A stretch of 58,321 nucleotides of DNA, taken from NCBI GenBank assembly GCA_019635285.1, contig JAHBZS010000029.1, forward strand, positions 1 through 58,321, given 5' to 3'. A program made the position numbers and the translations under genes. The stretch comes from Rubrivivax sp. (GTDB taxonomy: Bacteria > Pseudomonadota > Gammaproteobacteria > Burkholderiales > Burkholderiaceae_C). Positions 18,768-49,798 of this stretch are shown here, piece by piece; positions within the stretch are counted from its first letter, which is position 1; every line of letters begins with the position of its first letter. The notes beneath the pieces were generated by a model. That model ran no database searches. It was not told where the DNA came from and saw only the letters and a list, made by a program, of their open reading frames with translations.

Positions 18768-20117
18768 CTAGCGCTTGTGCTGGCCCAGCCAGCCTTCGAG
18801 GTAGTGGATGCCGGTGCCGCCCTCGACGAACTTGGCGTCGACCATCAGTTCACGGTGCAGCGGAATGTTGGTCTGGATGCCTTCGACCACCGTCTCCGAC
18901 AGCGCCGTGCGCATGCGCGCCAGCGCCTGCTCGCGCGTGTCGCCGTGGCAGATGATCTTGCCGATCATCGAGTCGTAGTTCGGCGGCACGAAGTAGTTGG
19001 CATAAGCATGCGAATCGACGCGCACGCCGGGGCCGCCCGGCGGGTGCCACATGCTGATGCGCCCGGGCGAGGGCGTGAACTTGTAGGGGTCCTCGGCGTT
19101 CACGCGGCATTCGATGGCATGGCCGCGCATCTGGATCGCGCGCTGCGTGAAGGGCAGCTTCTCGCCGGCGGCGATGCGGATCTGCATCTGCACGATGTCG
19201 ATGCCGGTGACCATCTCGGTCACCGGATGCTCGACCTGCACGCGCGTGTTCATCTCGATGAAGAAGAACTCGCCGTTCTCGTACAGGAACTCGAAGGTGC
19301 CGGCGCCGCGATAGCCGATCTTCTTGCAGGCGGCGGCGCAGCGGTCGCCGATGCGCTCGATGATGCGCCGCGCGATGCCCGGCGCCGGCGCCTCCTCGAT
19401 GATCTTCTGGTGGCGGCGCTGCATCGAGCAGTCGCGCTCGCCCAGCCAGACCGCGTTGCGGTGCTCGTCGGCCAGCACCTGGATCTCGATGTGGCGCGGG
19501 TGCTCCAGGAACTTCTCCATGTACAGCGCCGGGTTGCCGAAGGCCGCGGCGGCCTCGGCGCGCGTGGTCTGCACCGCGTGCAGTAGCGCGGCTTCGGTGT
19601 GCACCACGCGCATGCCGCGCCCGCCGCCGCCGCCGGCGGCCTTGACGATCACCGGGTAGCCGATGCCGCGCGCGATGCGCACCACCTCCTTCGGATCGTC
19701 GGGCAGCACGCCGTCGGAGCCGGGCACGCAGGGCACGCCCGACTTGATCATCGCCTGCTTGGCGGCGACCTTGTCGCCCATGATGCGGATCGACGCCGGC
19801 GTCGGCCCGATGAAGGTGAAGCCGCTGCGCTCCACGCGCTCGGCGAAGTCGGCGTTCTCCGACAGGAAGCCGTAGCCGGGGTGGATGGCCTCGGCGTCGG
19901 TGACCTCGGCGGTGGAGATGATCGCCGGCATGTTGAGGTAGCTCTGCGCGGACGCGGCCGGCCCGATGCACACCGCCTCGTCGGCCAGCTTCACGTACTT
20001 GGCTTCGCGGTCGGCTTCGGAATAGACGATCACCGACTGGATGCCCATCTCGCGGCAGGCGCGCTGGATGCGCAGGGCGATCTCGCCTCGGTTGGCGATG
20101 AGGATCTTCTTGAACAT
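18768..20117 (-). CDS. accC: Acetyl-CoA carboxylase, biotin carboxylase subunit
   Basis: A 449-residue biotin carboxylase that carboxylates the biotin of AccB using ATP and bicarbonate, the first step of fatty acid synthesis. Features are the N-terminal [15 protein letters not shown], the glycine-rich ATP loop AGGGGGRGM (161-169), and the [14 protein letters not shown] active-site block. GAGGCAC lies before the ATG. The first 35 bases of the gene and the 76 bases before it are tandemly duplicated upstream, giving a second ATG in an identical context at 20228 that opens a short leader ORF. Confidence 0.97.
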
Positions 20118-20309
20118 AAGTGCCTCGGCTCGATCGCCCTAGCGGGCTGCGCCCGCGGCGCGATGTGGCTTCGCCGCCACGCCTGCGGCGTGGTCGCCTC
20201 GGTTGGCGATGAGGATCTTCTTGAACATAAGTGCCTCGGCTCGATCGCCCTAGCGGGCTGCGCCCGCGGCGCGATGTGGCTTCGCCGCCACGCCTGCGGC
20301 GTGGTCGCC
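20083..20309. repeat. 111-bp direct tandem duplication at the accC 5' end
   Basis: Two adjacent copies, 20083-20193 and 20194-20304, appear identical base for base, with five further matching bases to 20309. Each copy holds the first 35 bases of accC, its ribosome binding site and three small hairpins in the upstream spacer (GCGGGC-TGC-GCCCGC, GTGGC-6-GCCAC, CCACGCC-TGC-GGCGTGG). The unit is 37 codons long, so frame is kept. Perfect identity suggests a recent event, or an assembly error. Confidence 0.9.
20139..20228 (-). CDS. Leader ORF made from a duplicated accC start, 29 aa
   Basis: The upstream copy of the duplicated accC start reads [11 protein letters not shown], as in AccC, then diverges into DHAAGVAAKPHRAAGAAR and a TAG at 20141-20139, 21 bases before the real accC ATG. 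It has the same Shine-Dalgarno context as accC because that was copied too, so it should be translated. Whether it affects accC expression is unknown; a short ORF ending just ahead of the gene could allow or compete with initiation. Confidence 0.45.
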   Translation of the reverse strand: MFKKILIANRGDHAAGVAAKPHRAAGAAR

Positions 20310-20350
20310 GCGGGGGGAGTTCAGTGTTCTCTTGAGCATGGCCGGGCCGG

Positions 20351-45643: not shown

Positions 45644-45732
45644 TTGGGCACCTTCGGGCAATGCCCTCCGGTATTCGCCCTTGGGGCGGCCCGGCGGGCG
45701 CAAGCGCGCAGTGTGCCTGCCGCGGGAATAAA

Positions 45733-46320
45733 ATGAAGCCGATGGGCGCCGCCACCTTGAACCTCAGCAATCAGTTCCTGATTGCCATGCCCGGCATGCT
45801 GGACGACGGTTTCGCCGGTTCGGTGGTCTATCTCTGCGAGCACAGCGAGCGCGGCGCGCTGGGGTTGGTGATCAACAAGCCGATCGACATCAACCTGAAG
45901 AACCTCTTCGACAAGGTCGAGCTGAACCTCGAGCGCGAAGAGCTGGCGGTGCAGCCGGTGTTCTACGGCGGCCCGGTGCAGACCGAGCGCGGCTTCGTGC
46001 TGCACGAGCCGCGCGAGGCCGATGCCGCCAAGTACAACTCCACGTTGTCGGTGCCCGGCGGCCTGGACATGACCACCAGCAAGGACGTGCTGGAGGACCT
46101 GGCCAGCGGCACCGGGCCGAAGCGCGTGCTGGTCACCTTGGGCTACAGCGGCTGGTCGGCCGGCCAGCTGGAGGACGAGCTCGGCCGCAACGGCTGGCTC
46201 ACCGTCGACGCCGACCCGGCGATCATCTTCGACACACCCATCGAGCAGCGCTACGAGCGCGCGCTGTCGCTGCTGGGCATCGACCCGCGCATGCTGTCGC
46301 AAGAGGCGGGTCACGCATGA
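45733..46320 (+). CDS. yqgE: YqgE/AlgH-family protein
   Basis: A 195-residue YqgE (AlgH) protein: LNLSNQFLIAMPGMLDDGFAGSVVYLCEHSERGALGLVINKP is the family signature. Role uncertain (linked to pyrimidine and exopolysaccharide genes by position). It starts at ATG 45733; ATG 45742 is also possible. Its TGA overlaps an ATG (46317) that opens the first of three micro-ORFs in a tandem repeat. It heads the yqgE-ruvX-pyrR-pyrB-pyrC' cluster. Confidence 0.94.
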   Translation: MKPMGAATLNLSNQFLIAMPGMLDDGFAGSVVYLCEHSERGALGLVINKPIDINLKNLFDKVELNLEREELAVQPVFYGGPVQTERGFVLHEPREADAAKYNSTLSVPGGLDMTTSKDVLEDLASGTGPKRVLVTLGYSGWSAGQLEDELGRNGWLTVDADPAIIFDTPIEQRYERALSLLGIDPRMLSQEAGHA

Positions 46321-46379
46321 GCGCGCCGGGCCGCTCCCCAGCGCGAATCCCGGAGCACGCCGTGCGGAGGGTTGTATGA
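46317..46379 (+). CDS. Micro-ORF 1 in the minisatellite, 20 aa
   Basis: ATG overlaps the yqgE TGA (ATGA) and its own TGA (46377-46379) overlaps the ATG of the next unit. The peptide starts [10 protein letters not shown] and is basic. Ribosomes leaving yqgE could pass through it by re-initiation. No homology is recognised; a coding role is inference from the junctions. Confidence 0.4.
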   Translation: MSAPGRSPARIPEHAVRRVV

Positions 46380-46438
46380 GCGCGCCGGGCCGCTCCCCAG
46401 CGCGAATCCCGGAGCACGCCGTGCGGAGGGTTGTATGA
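46376..46438 (+). CDS. Micro-ORF 2 in the minisatellite, 20 aa
   Basis: Same peptide as micro-ORF 1, encoded by the second identical unit in the next reading frame. It is preceded by GGAGG in the first unit and joined to the third unit by another ATGA overlap at 46435. Confidence 0.4.
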
Positions 46439-46500
46439 GCGCGCCGGGCCCCTCCCAAGCGCCAACCCCGGCGCATGCCGCGCGGAGGATCGTGCGGTGA
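46435..46500 (+). CDS. Micro-ORF 3 in the minisatellite, 21 aa
   Basis: The diverged third unit codes [18 protein letters not shown] and three more residues, ending in a TGA (46498-46500) that overlaps the GTG start of ruvX (GTGA). It therefore completes an unbroken chain of stop/start overlaps from yqgE to ruvX. Confidence 0.4.
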
Positions 46501-46907
46501 GCGGCGTGTCCGCTGCGCCCGCCGCCCCGCAGTCCTTTCTTGCCTTCGACTACGGCCTGCGCCGCGTCGGCGTGGCCGTCGGCAACACCTTGCTGCGCCA
46601 GGCGCAGCCGCTGAAGACCGTGGCCGCCGAGGGCGAGGCGCGTTTCGCCGCGATCGCCTCGCTGGTCGACGAATGGCGGCCCGACGCGCTGGTGGTCGGC
46701 GTGCCCTTCCACCCCGATGGCGCCGAGCACGACAACACCTTGCGTGCGCGCCGCTTCGGCCGCCAGCTGCACGGCCGCTTCCGCCTGCCGGTGCGCGAGG
46801 TCGACGAGCGCTACAGCACCACCGAGGCCCGGGCCGGCGGCGCGGCCGATGTCGATGCGGCATCGGCGGCCATCATCCTCGACCAGTTCCTGCGCGAGCT
46901 GCCATGA
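46497..46907 (+). CDS. ruvX: Holliday junction resolvase-like RuvX (YqgF)
   Basis: A 136-residue YqgF-family nuclease. Asp18 in [17 protein letters not shown] is the first catalytic acid, and [10 protein letters not shown] and [13 protein letters not shown] are later conserved blocks. It takes part in 16S rRNA 5' end processing in E. coli. The GTG at 46497 is chosen because GGAGG lies 8 bases upstream and the family start is near; an upstream in-frame TTG (46431) would add 22 residues. Its stop overlaps the pyrR ATG. Confidence 0.93.
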
Positions 46908-47410
46908 CCCAGTCGCTGCAACTCGATGCCGAAGCGCTGTATGCCGAACTGCTGGCCGGCGTGCGCGGCCTGCTGCGGCCCGAGGCCGTGCTGGTGGGCA
47001 TCTGGTCCGGCGGCGCCTGGCTGGCCGACCGGCTGCAGGCCGACCTGGGCCGCGGCGGCGCGGCCGGCGTCATCTCCAGCACCTTGCACCGCGACGACTT
47101 CGGCTCGCGCGGCATGGCCGCCGGCACCGACGCGACGAAACTGCCCTTCGCCATCGACGGCAGCCACATCCTGCTGATCGACGACGTGCTGTACACCGGC
47201 CGCACCATCCGCGCGGTGATCAACGAGCTTTACGACTTCGGCCGGCCGGCCAGCGTGCAGCTGGCGGTGCTGGTCGACCGCGGCGGGCGCGAGCTGCCCA
47301 TCCAGCCGGCCTTCGCCGCAGCGCGCGTGGTGCTGCCAGCCACGCAGAAGCTGACGCTGGCGCGCGACGACAGCGGTCGCTTCGCCTTTACCGTGCGGGA
47401 GCAGGCCTAG
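46904..47410 (+). CDS. pyrR: Pyrimidine regulator/uracil phosphoribosyltransferase PyrR
   Basis: A 168-residue phosphoribosyltransferase-fold protein with the PRPP loop [17 protein letters not shown] (residues 88-104) and the PyrR-type [15 protein letters not shown] region. In Gram-positive bacteria PyrR binds pyr mRNA; in proteobacteria its regulatory role is less certain. ATG overlaps the ruvX stop by 4 bases and its own TAG overlaps the pyrB GTG by one. Confidence 0.94.
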
Positions 47411-48372
47411 TGTTGTCGCGGCGCAATCCCCAGCTCAACGCCCACGGCGAGCTGATCCACCTGCTGTCCATCGAGGGCCTGCCCAAGGCCGTGCTGACGC
47501 AGATCCTCGACACCGCCGGCACCTTCTTGAGCGTCAACGACCGCGAGGTCAAGAAGGTGCCGCTGCTGCGGGGAAAAAGCGTCTTCAACCTGTTCTTCGA
47601 GAACAGCACGCGCACGCGCACCACCTTCGAGATCGCCGCCAAGCGCCTCAGCGCCGATGTCATCAACCTGGACATCGCACGCAGCAGCGCCGCCAAGGGC
47701 GAGAGCCTGCTGGACACCATCGCCAACCTGTCGGCGATGCATGCCGACATGTTCGTCGTGCGCCACAGCGAAAGCGGCGCGCCGTACCTGATCGCCCAGC
47801 ACTGCGCGCCGCACGTGCACGTGGTCAATGCCGGCGACGGCCGCCATGCGCACCCGACGCAGGGGCTGCTGGACATGTACACCATCCGCCACTACAAGAA
47901 AGACTTCTCCGGGCTGGTGGTGGCGGTGGTCGGCGACATCGTGCATTCGCGCGTGGCGCGCTCCGACATCCATGCGTTGAGCATCCTGGGCGCCGCCGAG
48001 ATCCGCGCCGTGGGGCCGAAGACCTTGGTGCCCGGCGACCTGCGCGAGATGGGCGTGCGCGTCTGCCACGACATGGCCGAAGGCATCCGCGATGCCGACG
48101 TGGTGATCATGCTGCGCCTGCAGAACGAACGCATGAGCGGCGCGCTGCTGCCCAGCGCCGCTGAGTTCGCCAAGAGCTACGGGCTGACGCCGCAGAAGCT
48201 GGCGCTGGCCAAGCCCGATGCCATCGTCATGCACCCGGGGCCGATCAACCGCGGCGTGGAAATCGACTCAGCGGTGGCCGACGGCGCGCACAGCGTGATC
48301 CTGCCGCAGGTCACCTTCGGCATCGCGGTGCGCATGGCCGTGATGTCGATCATCGCCGGAAACGAACCATGA
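47410..48372 (+). CDS. pyrB: Aspartate carbamoyltransferase catalytic subunit
   Basis: A 320-residue ATCase: [13 protein letters not shown] (residues 62-74) binds carbamoyl phosphate, [14 protein letters not shown] binds the second substrate site, and [12 protein letters not shown] is near the C-terminus. The start is GTG at 47410, overlapping the TAG of pyrR (TAGTG). In bacteria with this gene order the enzyme needs a dihydroorotase-like partner for its dodecameric structure, which fits the next gene. A hairpin-rich repeat lies directly after its stop. Confidence 0.96.
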
Positions 48373-48480
48373 CCCCCCCCCGAGGCGCCTGCGGCGCTCC
48401 CCCCCAGGGGGGCGCAGCCAGCGGCCCGGCAGAGCCGGTTCCGCGGCTGCCGCTCGACATGCCGGTGGCCTGTGCCGCCA
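48373..48480. repeat. Hairpin-rich dispersed element between pyrB and pyrC'
   Basis: GC-rich inverted repeats: GGCGCC-TGC-GGCGC (48384-48396 region), CCCCCC/GGGGGG (48399-48412) and CCGGC-AGA-GCCGG (48426-48438) inside GCGG...CCGC. 48418-48458 matches 33 of 41 bases with 37918-37958 between pilJ and chpA, preceded in both by a C-run/G-run stem. I take the two as members of one dispersed intergenic family. Confidence 0.7.
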
Positions 48481-48493
48481 CGGAGCTTTCGCG

Positions 48494-49798
48494 ATGAAGT
48501 TGCTGATCCGCCACGGCCGCGTCATCGACCCCGCCTCGGGCCGCGACGAGGTGGCCGACGTGGCCATCGCCTCGGGCCGCATCGTCGGCATCGGGCGCGC
48601 GGGCGACTTCGAGCCCGAGCACACCATCGACGCCGCCGGCCTGGTGGTCGCGCCGGGGCTGGTGGACCTGGCGGCGCGGCTGCGCGAGCCGGGGCGCGAG
48701 CACCAGGGCATGCTGGAAAGCGAACTGCAGGCCGCGGCGGCCGGCGGCATCACCAGCCTGGTCTGCCCGCCGGATACCGAGCCGCCGCTGGACGAGCCGG
48801 GGCTGGTGGAGATGCTCAAGTTCCGCGCGCGCAAGCTGTCGCGCTGCCGGCTGTTCCCGCTGGGCGCGCTGACGCGCGGCCTGGCGGGCGAGGTGCTGAC
48901 CGAGATGGCCGAACTCACCGAAGCCGGCTGCGTCGGCTTCTCGCAGGCCGACGTGCCGCTGTACGACACCATGGTGCTGCAGCGCGCGCTGCAGTACGCC
49001 GCCACCTTCGGCTATGCGGTGTGGCTGCGGCCGCAGGACGCCTACCTGGGCAAAGGCGTGGCGGCCAGCGGCGCGCTGGCCACGCGCCTGGGGCTGTCGG
49101 GCGTGCCGGTGGCGGCGGAAACGATCGCGCTGCACACCCTGTTCGAGCTGGTGCGTGCCACCGGCGCGCGCGTGCACCTGTGCCGGCTGAGCAGCGCCGC
49201 CGGCGTGGCGCTGCTGCGCGCGGCCAAGGCCGAGGGGCTGCCACTGTCGGCCGACGTGAGCATCAACTCTCTGCACCTGAGCGACGTGGACATCGGCTAC
49301 TTCAACGCCGACATGCGGCTGACGCCGCCGCTGCGCCAGGGCGCCGACCGCGACGCGCTGCGCGCCGCGCTGGCCGACGGCACCATCGACGCGCTGGTCT
49401 CCGACCACAACCCGGTGGACGATGACGCCAAGACGCTGCCCTTCGGCGAGGCCGAGCCCGGCGCCACCGGCCTGGAGCTGCTGCTCAGCCTGGCGCTGAA
49501 GTGGGGCGCCGACGCCGGGCTCGACCTGGGTCGCACGCTCGCCCGCGTGACCTGCGCGCCGGTGGCGGTGCTTGGCGAGACCGTCGGCTCCTTGGCGGCG
49601 AGTGCCGGGCGCCTGGTCGAAGGCGGCGTGGCCGACGTCTGCGTGTTCGACCCCCACACCACCTGGCGCCTGGAGCCCGGGCTGCTGAAGAGCCAGGGCC
49701 GGCACACGCCCTTCAGCTTCAGCCACACCGGCATGGGGCTGCCCGGGCGTGTGCGGGCCACGCTGGTGGCCGGCACCGTGGCCTACGAGGCCCCATGA
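48494..49798 (+). CDS. pyrC': Dihydroorotase-like PyrC', probably non-catalytic
   Basis: A 434-residue amidohydrolase-family protein matching the multifunctional-complex dihydroorotase type: DIGYFNADMRLTPPLR and DALVSDHNPVDDDAKTLPFGEAEPGATGLE. The metal motif DxHxHxREPG is replaced by DLAARLREPG, with Ala60 and Arg62 in place of the two histidines, so metal binding and catalysis should be lost. Such PyrC' proteins hold aspartate carbamoyltransferase together in Pseudomonas. An active pyrC must lie elsewhere. Confidence 0.9.
   Translation: MKLLIRHGRVIDPASGRDEVADVAIASGRIVGIGRAGDFEPEHTIDAAGLVVAPGLVDLAARLREPGREHQGMLESELQAAAAGGITSLVCPPDTEPPLDEPGLVEMLKFRARKLSRCRLFPLGALTRGLAGEVLTEMAELTEAGCVGFSQADVPLYDTMVLQRALQYAATFGYAVWLRPQDAYLGKGVAASGALATRLGLSGVPVAAETIALHTLFELVRATGARVHLCRLSSAAGVALLRAAKAEGLPLSADVSINSLHLSDVDIGYFNADMRLTPPLRQGADRDALRAALADGTIDALVSDHNPVDDDAKTLPFGEAEPGATGLELLLSLALKWGADAGLDLGRTLARVTCAPVAVLGETVGSLAASAGRLVEGGVADVCVFDPHTTWRLEPGLLKSQGRHTPFSFSHTGMGLPGRVRATLVAGTVAYEAP

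Follow-up and report, generated by a model that had tools for sequence, protein, structure and literature searches.

REP elements, which go with RAYT (Y1) transposases, are dispersed, hairpin-bearing repeats found between genes, and the Rickettsia palindromic elements are mobile repeats located inside coding sequences, where they are tolerated by staying in the frame of the gene. A third group, the mycobacterial interspersed repetitive units (MIRUs), was reportedly described by Supply et al. in 1997. As outlined in a review (PMC12548453), MIRUs are apparently mobile, with start codons as their insertion sites, and bring along an ORF coupled at −4, which likely softens the impact of insertion. 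At senX3-regX3, a second article (PMC4213456) lists three 77-bp MIRUs in H37Rv, and two 77-bp units plus one 53-bp unit in CDC1551. Termination-reinitiation at ATGA overlaps is described in two sources (PMC6728339, PMC12548453), with the Shine-Dalgarno site located where the upstream ORF ends.

We analyzed a 58,321-nt stretch of Rubrivivax sp. DNA (the window), in which three tandem units of a short repeat, designated here the relay element, lie between yqgE and ruvX. We consider it probable that these units represent a dispersed and presumably mobile element at translational-coupling junctions, which would preserve the coupling through a termination-reinitiation relay. The element shares with MIRUs its short length, apparent mobility, an ORF coupled to the gene by a 4-base overlap, and tandem copies; unlike MIRUs, it forms a Burkholderiales family in another phylum, its units are mostly 59–63 nt long with two covarying hairpins, and its type B variant is fused to the downstream gene. 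The family appears to work like a MIRU, yet we do not file it as one, as the likeness is one of description. An earlier, sequence-only reading of the array had known of no described example, whereas the mycobacterial units are described in much the same terms in the review (PMC12548453). The overlap geometry and the position of the Shine-Dalgarno site are shared with termination-reinitiation at ATGA overlaps between two ordinary genes, the difference being that the relay partner is a repeated, inserted micro-ORF. The in-frame fusion of type B resembles the Rickettsia palindromic elements, whereas the relay element resides at gene junctions instead.

The stop/start chain between yqgE and ruvX

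Each relay unit consists of an NTGA, a 20–21-codon micro-ORF with a start-codon hairpin (H1), a second hairpin (H2) beside a strong Shine-Dalgarno site, and the next NTGA. The first two units of the array are identical (59/59 positions) and the third, of 62 nt, carries 9 differences from unit 2 over the 59 shared positions, in agreement with the two identical 59-base units and a diverged third recognized before (Table 1). The chain without gaps that had been proposed to run from yqgE to ruvX through micro-ORFs of 20–21 codons was borne out by the coordinates: the yqgE TGA occupies 46318–46320, the stop of each micro-ORF sits inside the NTGA of the following start, and the GTG of ruvX at 46497 lies within GTGA, making every link a 4-base overlap. 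The first two micro-ORFs encode the same 20-residue peptide and the third encodes 21 residues. The GGAGG motif, thought to end each unit, is located instead 5 to 8 bases before the unit end. H2 of unit 1 contains an A-T pair, a compensatory type found across the family; by eye, H2 of unit 3 shows one mismatch and one G-U wobble among its 4 pairs, and H1 of units 1 and 2 forms only 6 of 8 pairs. Rfam covariance models gave 0 matches at E≤1 in 46000–46900.

Tandem Repeats Finder (118 rows for the window) scored the array at 295, with a period of 59 and 2.9 copies. The single higher-scoring array in the window is a 111-base tandem repeat at 20083–20313 (2.1 copies, 99% match, score 455). A different, REP-like repeat with 26 blastn matches in the genome, its own place included, occupies 48369–48497 between pyrB and pyrC; it opens a 42-codon ORF, the start of which overlaps the pyrB stop (ATGA) and the stop of which overlaps the pyrC start (ATGA).

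Table 1. Features of the relay locus and its surroundings in the window.
Feature	Position	Strand	Evidence and remarks
Second family member, type B, 60 nt, hairpin GGGC-ATT-GCCC	45644..45703	-	R2 match 1.7e-14; in frame with photolyase gene (Pfam PF00875, PF03441)
yqgE (AlgH-like, DUF179)	45733..46320	+	Pfam PF02622, E 1.7e-50; TGA within ATGA of unit 1
Unit 1, relay element, 59 nt	46317..46375	+	Micro-ORF 46317-46379, 20 codons; R1 match 6.4e-16
Hairpin H2 of unit 1 (GCAC-GCC-GTGC)	46355..46365	+	Sequence; directly 5′ of Shine-Dalgarno site
Shine-Dalgarno GGAGG of unit 1, serving start 46376	46366..46370	+	Sequence; predicted duplex −10.0 kcal/mol
Unit 2, identical to unit 1	46376..46434	+	Micro-ORF 46376-46438, 20 codons; Shine-Dalgarno 46425-46429
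Unit 3, 62 nt, diverged	46435..46496	+	Micro-ORF 46435-46500, 21 codons; Shine-Dalgarno 46484-46488; R2 match 2.3e-7
ruvX, GTG start in GTGA	46497..46907	+	Pfam PF03652, E 2.1e-34
pyrR-like phosphoribosyltransferase	46904..47410	+	Pfam PF00156; ATGA overlap with ruvX; PyrR name from the sequence-only reading, fits position
pyrB (aspartate/ornithine carbamoyltransferase)	47410..48372	+	Pfam PF02729 and PF00185; TAGTG overlap with pyrR

Dispersal and placement of the element

The array had been taken for a local minisatellite. Judged by sequence comparison, the unit is a short element scattered through many Burkholderiales genomes, with copies across the genome, the genus and the order; because these dispersed copies exist, a purely local minisatellite was ruled out and a chance origin of the array is excluded. 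In the own genome, blastn gave 21 matches, R1 (a sequence-only model built from 20 own-genome units) 72 matches at E≤1, and R2 (a model including the hairpin) 60 matches at E≤0.1. The union of both models at E<1e-3 amounted to about 54 units distributed over 42 places, with tandem units at 8 of these, an interspersion of a short repeat at many gene junctions of the kind that characterizes MIRUs. Counting the own genome, 71 of the 81 genus members contained R1 matches at E≤0.01, with up to 69 each, a maximum near the 70 candidates scored per genome. Under strict filters, which likely missed copies, R1 was positive in 10 of 300 genomes of the order (E≤1e-6) and R2 in 21 of 399 (E≤1e-5), the latter being divergent subfamilies spread over 17 of the 159 genera sampled; with similarly strict filters, a phylum sample of 299 yielded 4 positives, own included, all in the window's own family. 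A pattern scan of named genomes gave at least 119 stretches, and among the matches listed were records of Rubrivivax, Piscinibacter, Ideonella, Leptothrix, Rhizobacter, Aquabacterium, Pelomonas, Inhella and Hydrogenophaga, many of these records being MAGs. Loci L029–L147 were retrieved by a pattern containing TGAGC, which builds in the conservation of columns 2–28 there. The collections of plasmids, phages and viral contigs contained no match to the window array or to two exact patterns. The family did not appear in the literature descriptions searched at the title and abstract level, where six of its peptide strings matched nothing; as far as this search reached, it is a sizeable and previously undescribed family of a kind already known from mycobacteria, to which the hairpins and the fused variant are added.

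Several types of unit were distinguished. The type A consensus, derived from 124 clean units at 103 loci, is ATGAGCGCGCCGGGCCGCTCCCAAGCGCTCATCCCGGAGCGCGCAGCGCGGAGGGTMGTCCA followed by RTGA, measures 62 bases from start to start and encodes the peptide MSAPGRSQALIPERAARRVVQ. Type B (60 bases, about MSPPGRPKGEYRSAQHEGTPVS) is in frame with the next gene, and two further types were found, one of 59 bases and one whose hairpin is longer (GCCC-TTCAA-GGGC). Even where the micro-ORF has an odd length (57, 60, 66, 84, 87 and others), the array finishes on the downstream NTGA. At L013 and L128, the end of the upstream gene resembles the 3′ end of a unit (ggagggtcgtcca before ATGA at L013), perhaps what remains of an earlier unit that the gene took in. 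The type B copy in the window supplies the predicted N-terminus of the photolyase (MRPPGRPKGEYRRALPEGAQL), the true start of which may be the TTG after the copy; the upstream neighbor of that gene is divergent, which counts against the junction rule.

The junction set drew on 179 loci, collected as sets of 139 and 40, in which nhmmer (E≤1e-3) identified 173 arrays. Among the 164 arrays examined upstream, 9 had unclear phase, and 127 of the remaining 155 began exactly at the stop of the upstream gene (24/30 in the own genome); the 28 misfits comprised 24 arrays located beyond the stop and 4 before it. For comparison, a crude gene caller identified 4-base overlaps at 85 of 769 co-directional pairs in the copy-free relative G024. 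Downstream, after exclusion of 13 arrays without sequence and 20 with unclear phase (7 in frame, 13 not), 134 of 140 readable arrays led into the frame of the next gene, 118 through overlaps and 16 through fusion, and 6 failed to enter it; the own genome contributed 26 of 28. The small ORF thus carries at both ends the 4-base overlaps to neighboring genes that are typical of MIRUs. Open frames alone prove little in GC-rich DNA because starts shifted by one or two bases also reached the downstream frame (131/140 and 117/140), which made this control uninformative.

The spacing of tandem units offered a better test of the chain than these counts. The 57 spacings measured 58 (2), 59 (6), 60 (8), 62 (23), 63 (15) and 66 (3) nt, with no 61 or 64, so that 29 left a remainder of 2 on division by three, 26 a remainder of 0, and only 2 the remainder of 1 that would break the chain. 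The avoidance of the chain-breaking class corresponds to a binomial probability of 4e-8 assuming independence, which related copies violate. Both exceptions are 58-nt spacings: at L009 a second one-base deletion restored the frame, and L287 looks mis-registered by one base. The comparison supports the chain of restarts put forward by the sequence-only reading, with matched upstream stops and downstream starts at many junctions and chain-breaking spacings nearly absent. Its claim that each unit obliges a restart holds in the window, where the spacings are 59, 59 and 62, and fails for the family at large, since the 26 spacings that are multiples of three leave neighboring units in one frame.

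RuvX matches were found in 76 of the 81 genus genomes (78 matches), and the best 30 of the 78 were used to compare the yqgE-ruvX junction. The copy number, proposed earlier for comparison among relatives, indeed varies, the variation being seen between species: the own genome carries 3 units, G041 carries 1, and the other 28 carry none. In 10 of these 28 empty relatives, a candidate start lies in a 4-base overlap (e.g., cacgcATGA). At the same junction, G085, G027 and G031 (L165, L171, L177) hold a different, palindromic-looking repeat (cccccaagctcgctggcgctcgc...), and the junction therefore seems prone to insertion. We also looked in G024 for the orthologous junctions of 142 arrays; 101 junctions were searchable, and 19 of the 101 had a candidate neighbor pair. 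At the 11 empty sites with ≥50% identity on both sides, the genes overlapped by 4 bases in 6 cases and by 1 base in 2, with neither overlap at the other 3. Since most of these good empty sites (8/11) are overlaps, the element often occupies former overlap junctions, a placement at pre-existing stop/start junctions that is again MIRU-like.

The alternative that survives best is an ordinary REP- or MITE-like repeat, inserted at random or with a bias to stops and surviving at harmless junctions, which would leave the stop-start pattern functionless. We regard this as possible, if somewhat unlikely. The relay copies are dispersed, hairpin-bearing, GC-rich and patchy, as such a repeat would be, and the REP-like repeat of the pyrB-pyrC junction behaves in part alike: the 5 other copies inspected all lie in gene orientation, 2 of them starting right on the NTGA of an upstream stop and the remaining 3 at 5–7 bases past a stop. 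Part of the relay pattern may thus be general survivorship. However, the far ends of these copies lie at varying distances from the next possible starts, with no fit, whereas the relay element mostly fits to the base at both ends, and the avoidance of chain-breaking tandem spacings likewise argues against a functionless pattern. The preferences at the ends of the element (C before the first NTGA in 86/102 and a 3′ GTGA in 70/102, versus 41/85 and 27/85 in G024) hint at site choice, with survivorship as the remaining alternative. Unlike REP elements with their RAYT enzymes, the relay element is also found where Y1_Tnp had 0 matches, namely in the own genome (94.5% complete) and in G040, G034 and G012, three genomes rich in copies; a Y1 transposase was present in 33 of 81 genus genomes at E≤0.001. 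Y1/RAYT as the mobilizer was not supported, and the search for a mobilizing enzyme found none.

Hairpins, Shine-Dalgarno sites and the encoded peptide

Mutual information in the 124 type A units peaked at the adjacent columns 28-29 and at the nested pairs 40-46 (GC 91, AT 22, CG 3) and 39-47 (CG 105, TA 12). Predicted hairpins H1 and H2 display compensatory changes. The paired cells of H2 amounted to 91.4% in 38 own units (8 double-change cells), 96.5% in 94 distinct other units (25 double-change cells) and 100% in 16 subfamily representatives (8 double-change cells), values reached by 0 of 500 shuffles in each set, with the caveat that related copies can outdo shuffles, though slid versions fared far worse. 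H1 of the 38 own units was 86.5% paired with 9 double-change cells (0/500 shuffles); a CGA variant that breaks two H1 pairs occurs in 6/38 own and about 36/95 other units. On the double-change-cell measure, the element therefore contains palindromes with covarying stems, as in REP/RAYT systems. The counts of H2 pairs with a double change did not stand out from shuffles, which reached them 86, 355 and 28 times of 500 in the own, other and subfamily sets, and further pair types were likewise within shuffles (85, 499 and 128 of 500).

RNA folding was rejected as a signal, as the window array (z +0.91), the consensus unit (+0.37) and type A units (+0.04 and +0.78) were no better than shuffles; the type B unit, the long-hairpin variant and the photolyase copy gave −1.72, −2.11 and −1.02, respectively. 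The balance of G.U and A.C changes (43 vs 25; both hairpins, A3 + A4) was too weak to separate RNA from DNA structure. Some folds suggested that H2 may extend further, its CC pairing to the Shine-Dalgarno GG; of 200 units, 131 have C-G and 20 have A-T at the next position, and the rest are mixed.

The predicted Shine-Dalgarno energy had a median of −10.0 kcal/mol for the unit, compared with −5.9 kcal/mol for the native site that precedes it (n=119), the latter equal to the value (−5.9) for 205 overlaps in a copy-free relative. This difference, together with the AGG core of the site being invariant in the 16 subfamily representatives, would fit a ribosome-binding-site booster, kept for raising downstream translation by means of a better Shine-Dalgarno site and start. 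We judge this distinctly unlikely, because the native site at yqgE-ruvX already reaches −10.6, the empty relative G039 having the identical site, and the presence of the element at this junction, the one compared across the genus, is patchy between species.

The same strong predicted site argues for a near-neutral or helpful insertion and against the sequence-only proposal of a tunable translational attenuator, in which each restart would lose ribosomes and the number of units would set the yield of ruvX-pyrR-pyrB. Three serial restarts at yqgE-ruvX and a copy number that differs (0, 1 or 3) across the 30 junctions compared speak for attenuation. The units at many other junctions leave no role specific to the pyrimidine genes, and the tandem neighbors that share one frame (26/57) further weaken the proposal, making it very doubtful.

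A functional, conserved micropeptide is highly improbable: the conserved MSAPGR start and a rough nonsynonymous/synonymous ratio of 0.57 over the whole unit may point to a weak peptide-level constraint on the micro-ORF, but the ratio rises to 0.69 and 0.87 in parts that the search pattern hardly covers, frame-fused and frame-shifted versions occur, and hairpin covariation accounts for part of the conservation.

The proposed translational relay

The element lies mostly between co-directional genes, often at an earlier stop/start overlap. In the relay that we favor, the stop of the upstream gene would turn into the TGA of the unit's start overlap and the stop of the micro-ORF would overlap the downstream start. 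A ribosome finishing yqgE would restart on the first micro-ORF, open H2 while translating it, terminate, restart at the next NTGA and, after the last unit, reach ruvX. Insertion and later tandem duplication would spare the coupling of the operon, and the insertion would be nearly silent.

A bolder version, which we consider rather unlikely, adds that H1 hides the start of the unit and H2 masks the Shine-Dalgarno site. The elements would then be self-spreading relays that target NTGA throughout the order; nearly all ribosomes translating the downstream gene would arrive from the gene upstream, and the number and type of units (stop-start or fused) would reset the ratios of operon neighbors between species.

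The annotation of genes fused to type B units, such as the predicted photolyase, may be affected, with predicted N-termini about 20 residues too long. The mechanism of termination-reinitiation is, according to the review cited above (PMC12548453), not firmly established, and the natural pairs with 0, 1, 2 and 3 units, as well as the stop-start and fused pairs, offer a test of it. The relay element represents a separate, structurally rich family outside the mycobacterial phylum, which suggests that hiding in stop/start overlaps is a general lifestyle for tiny operon elements.
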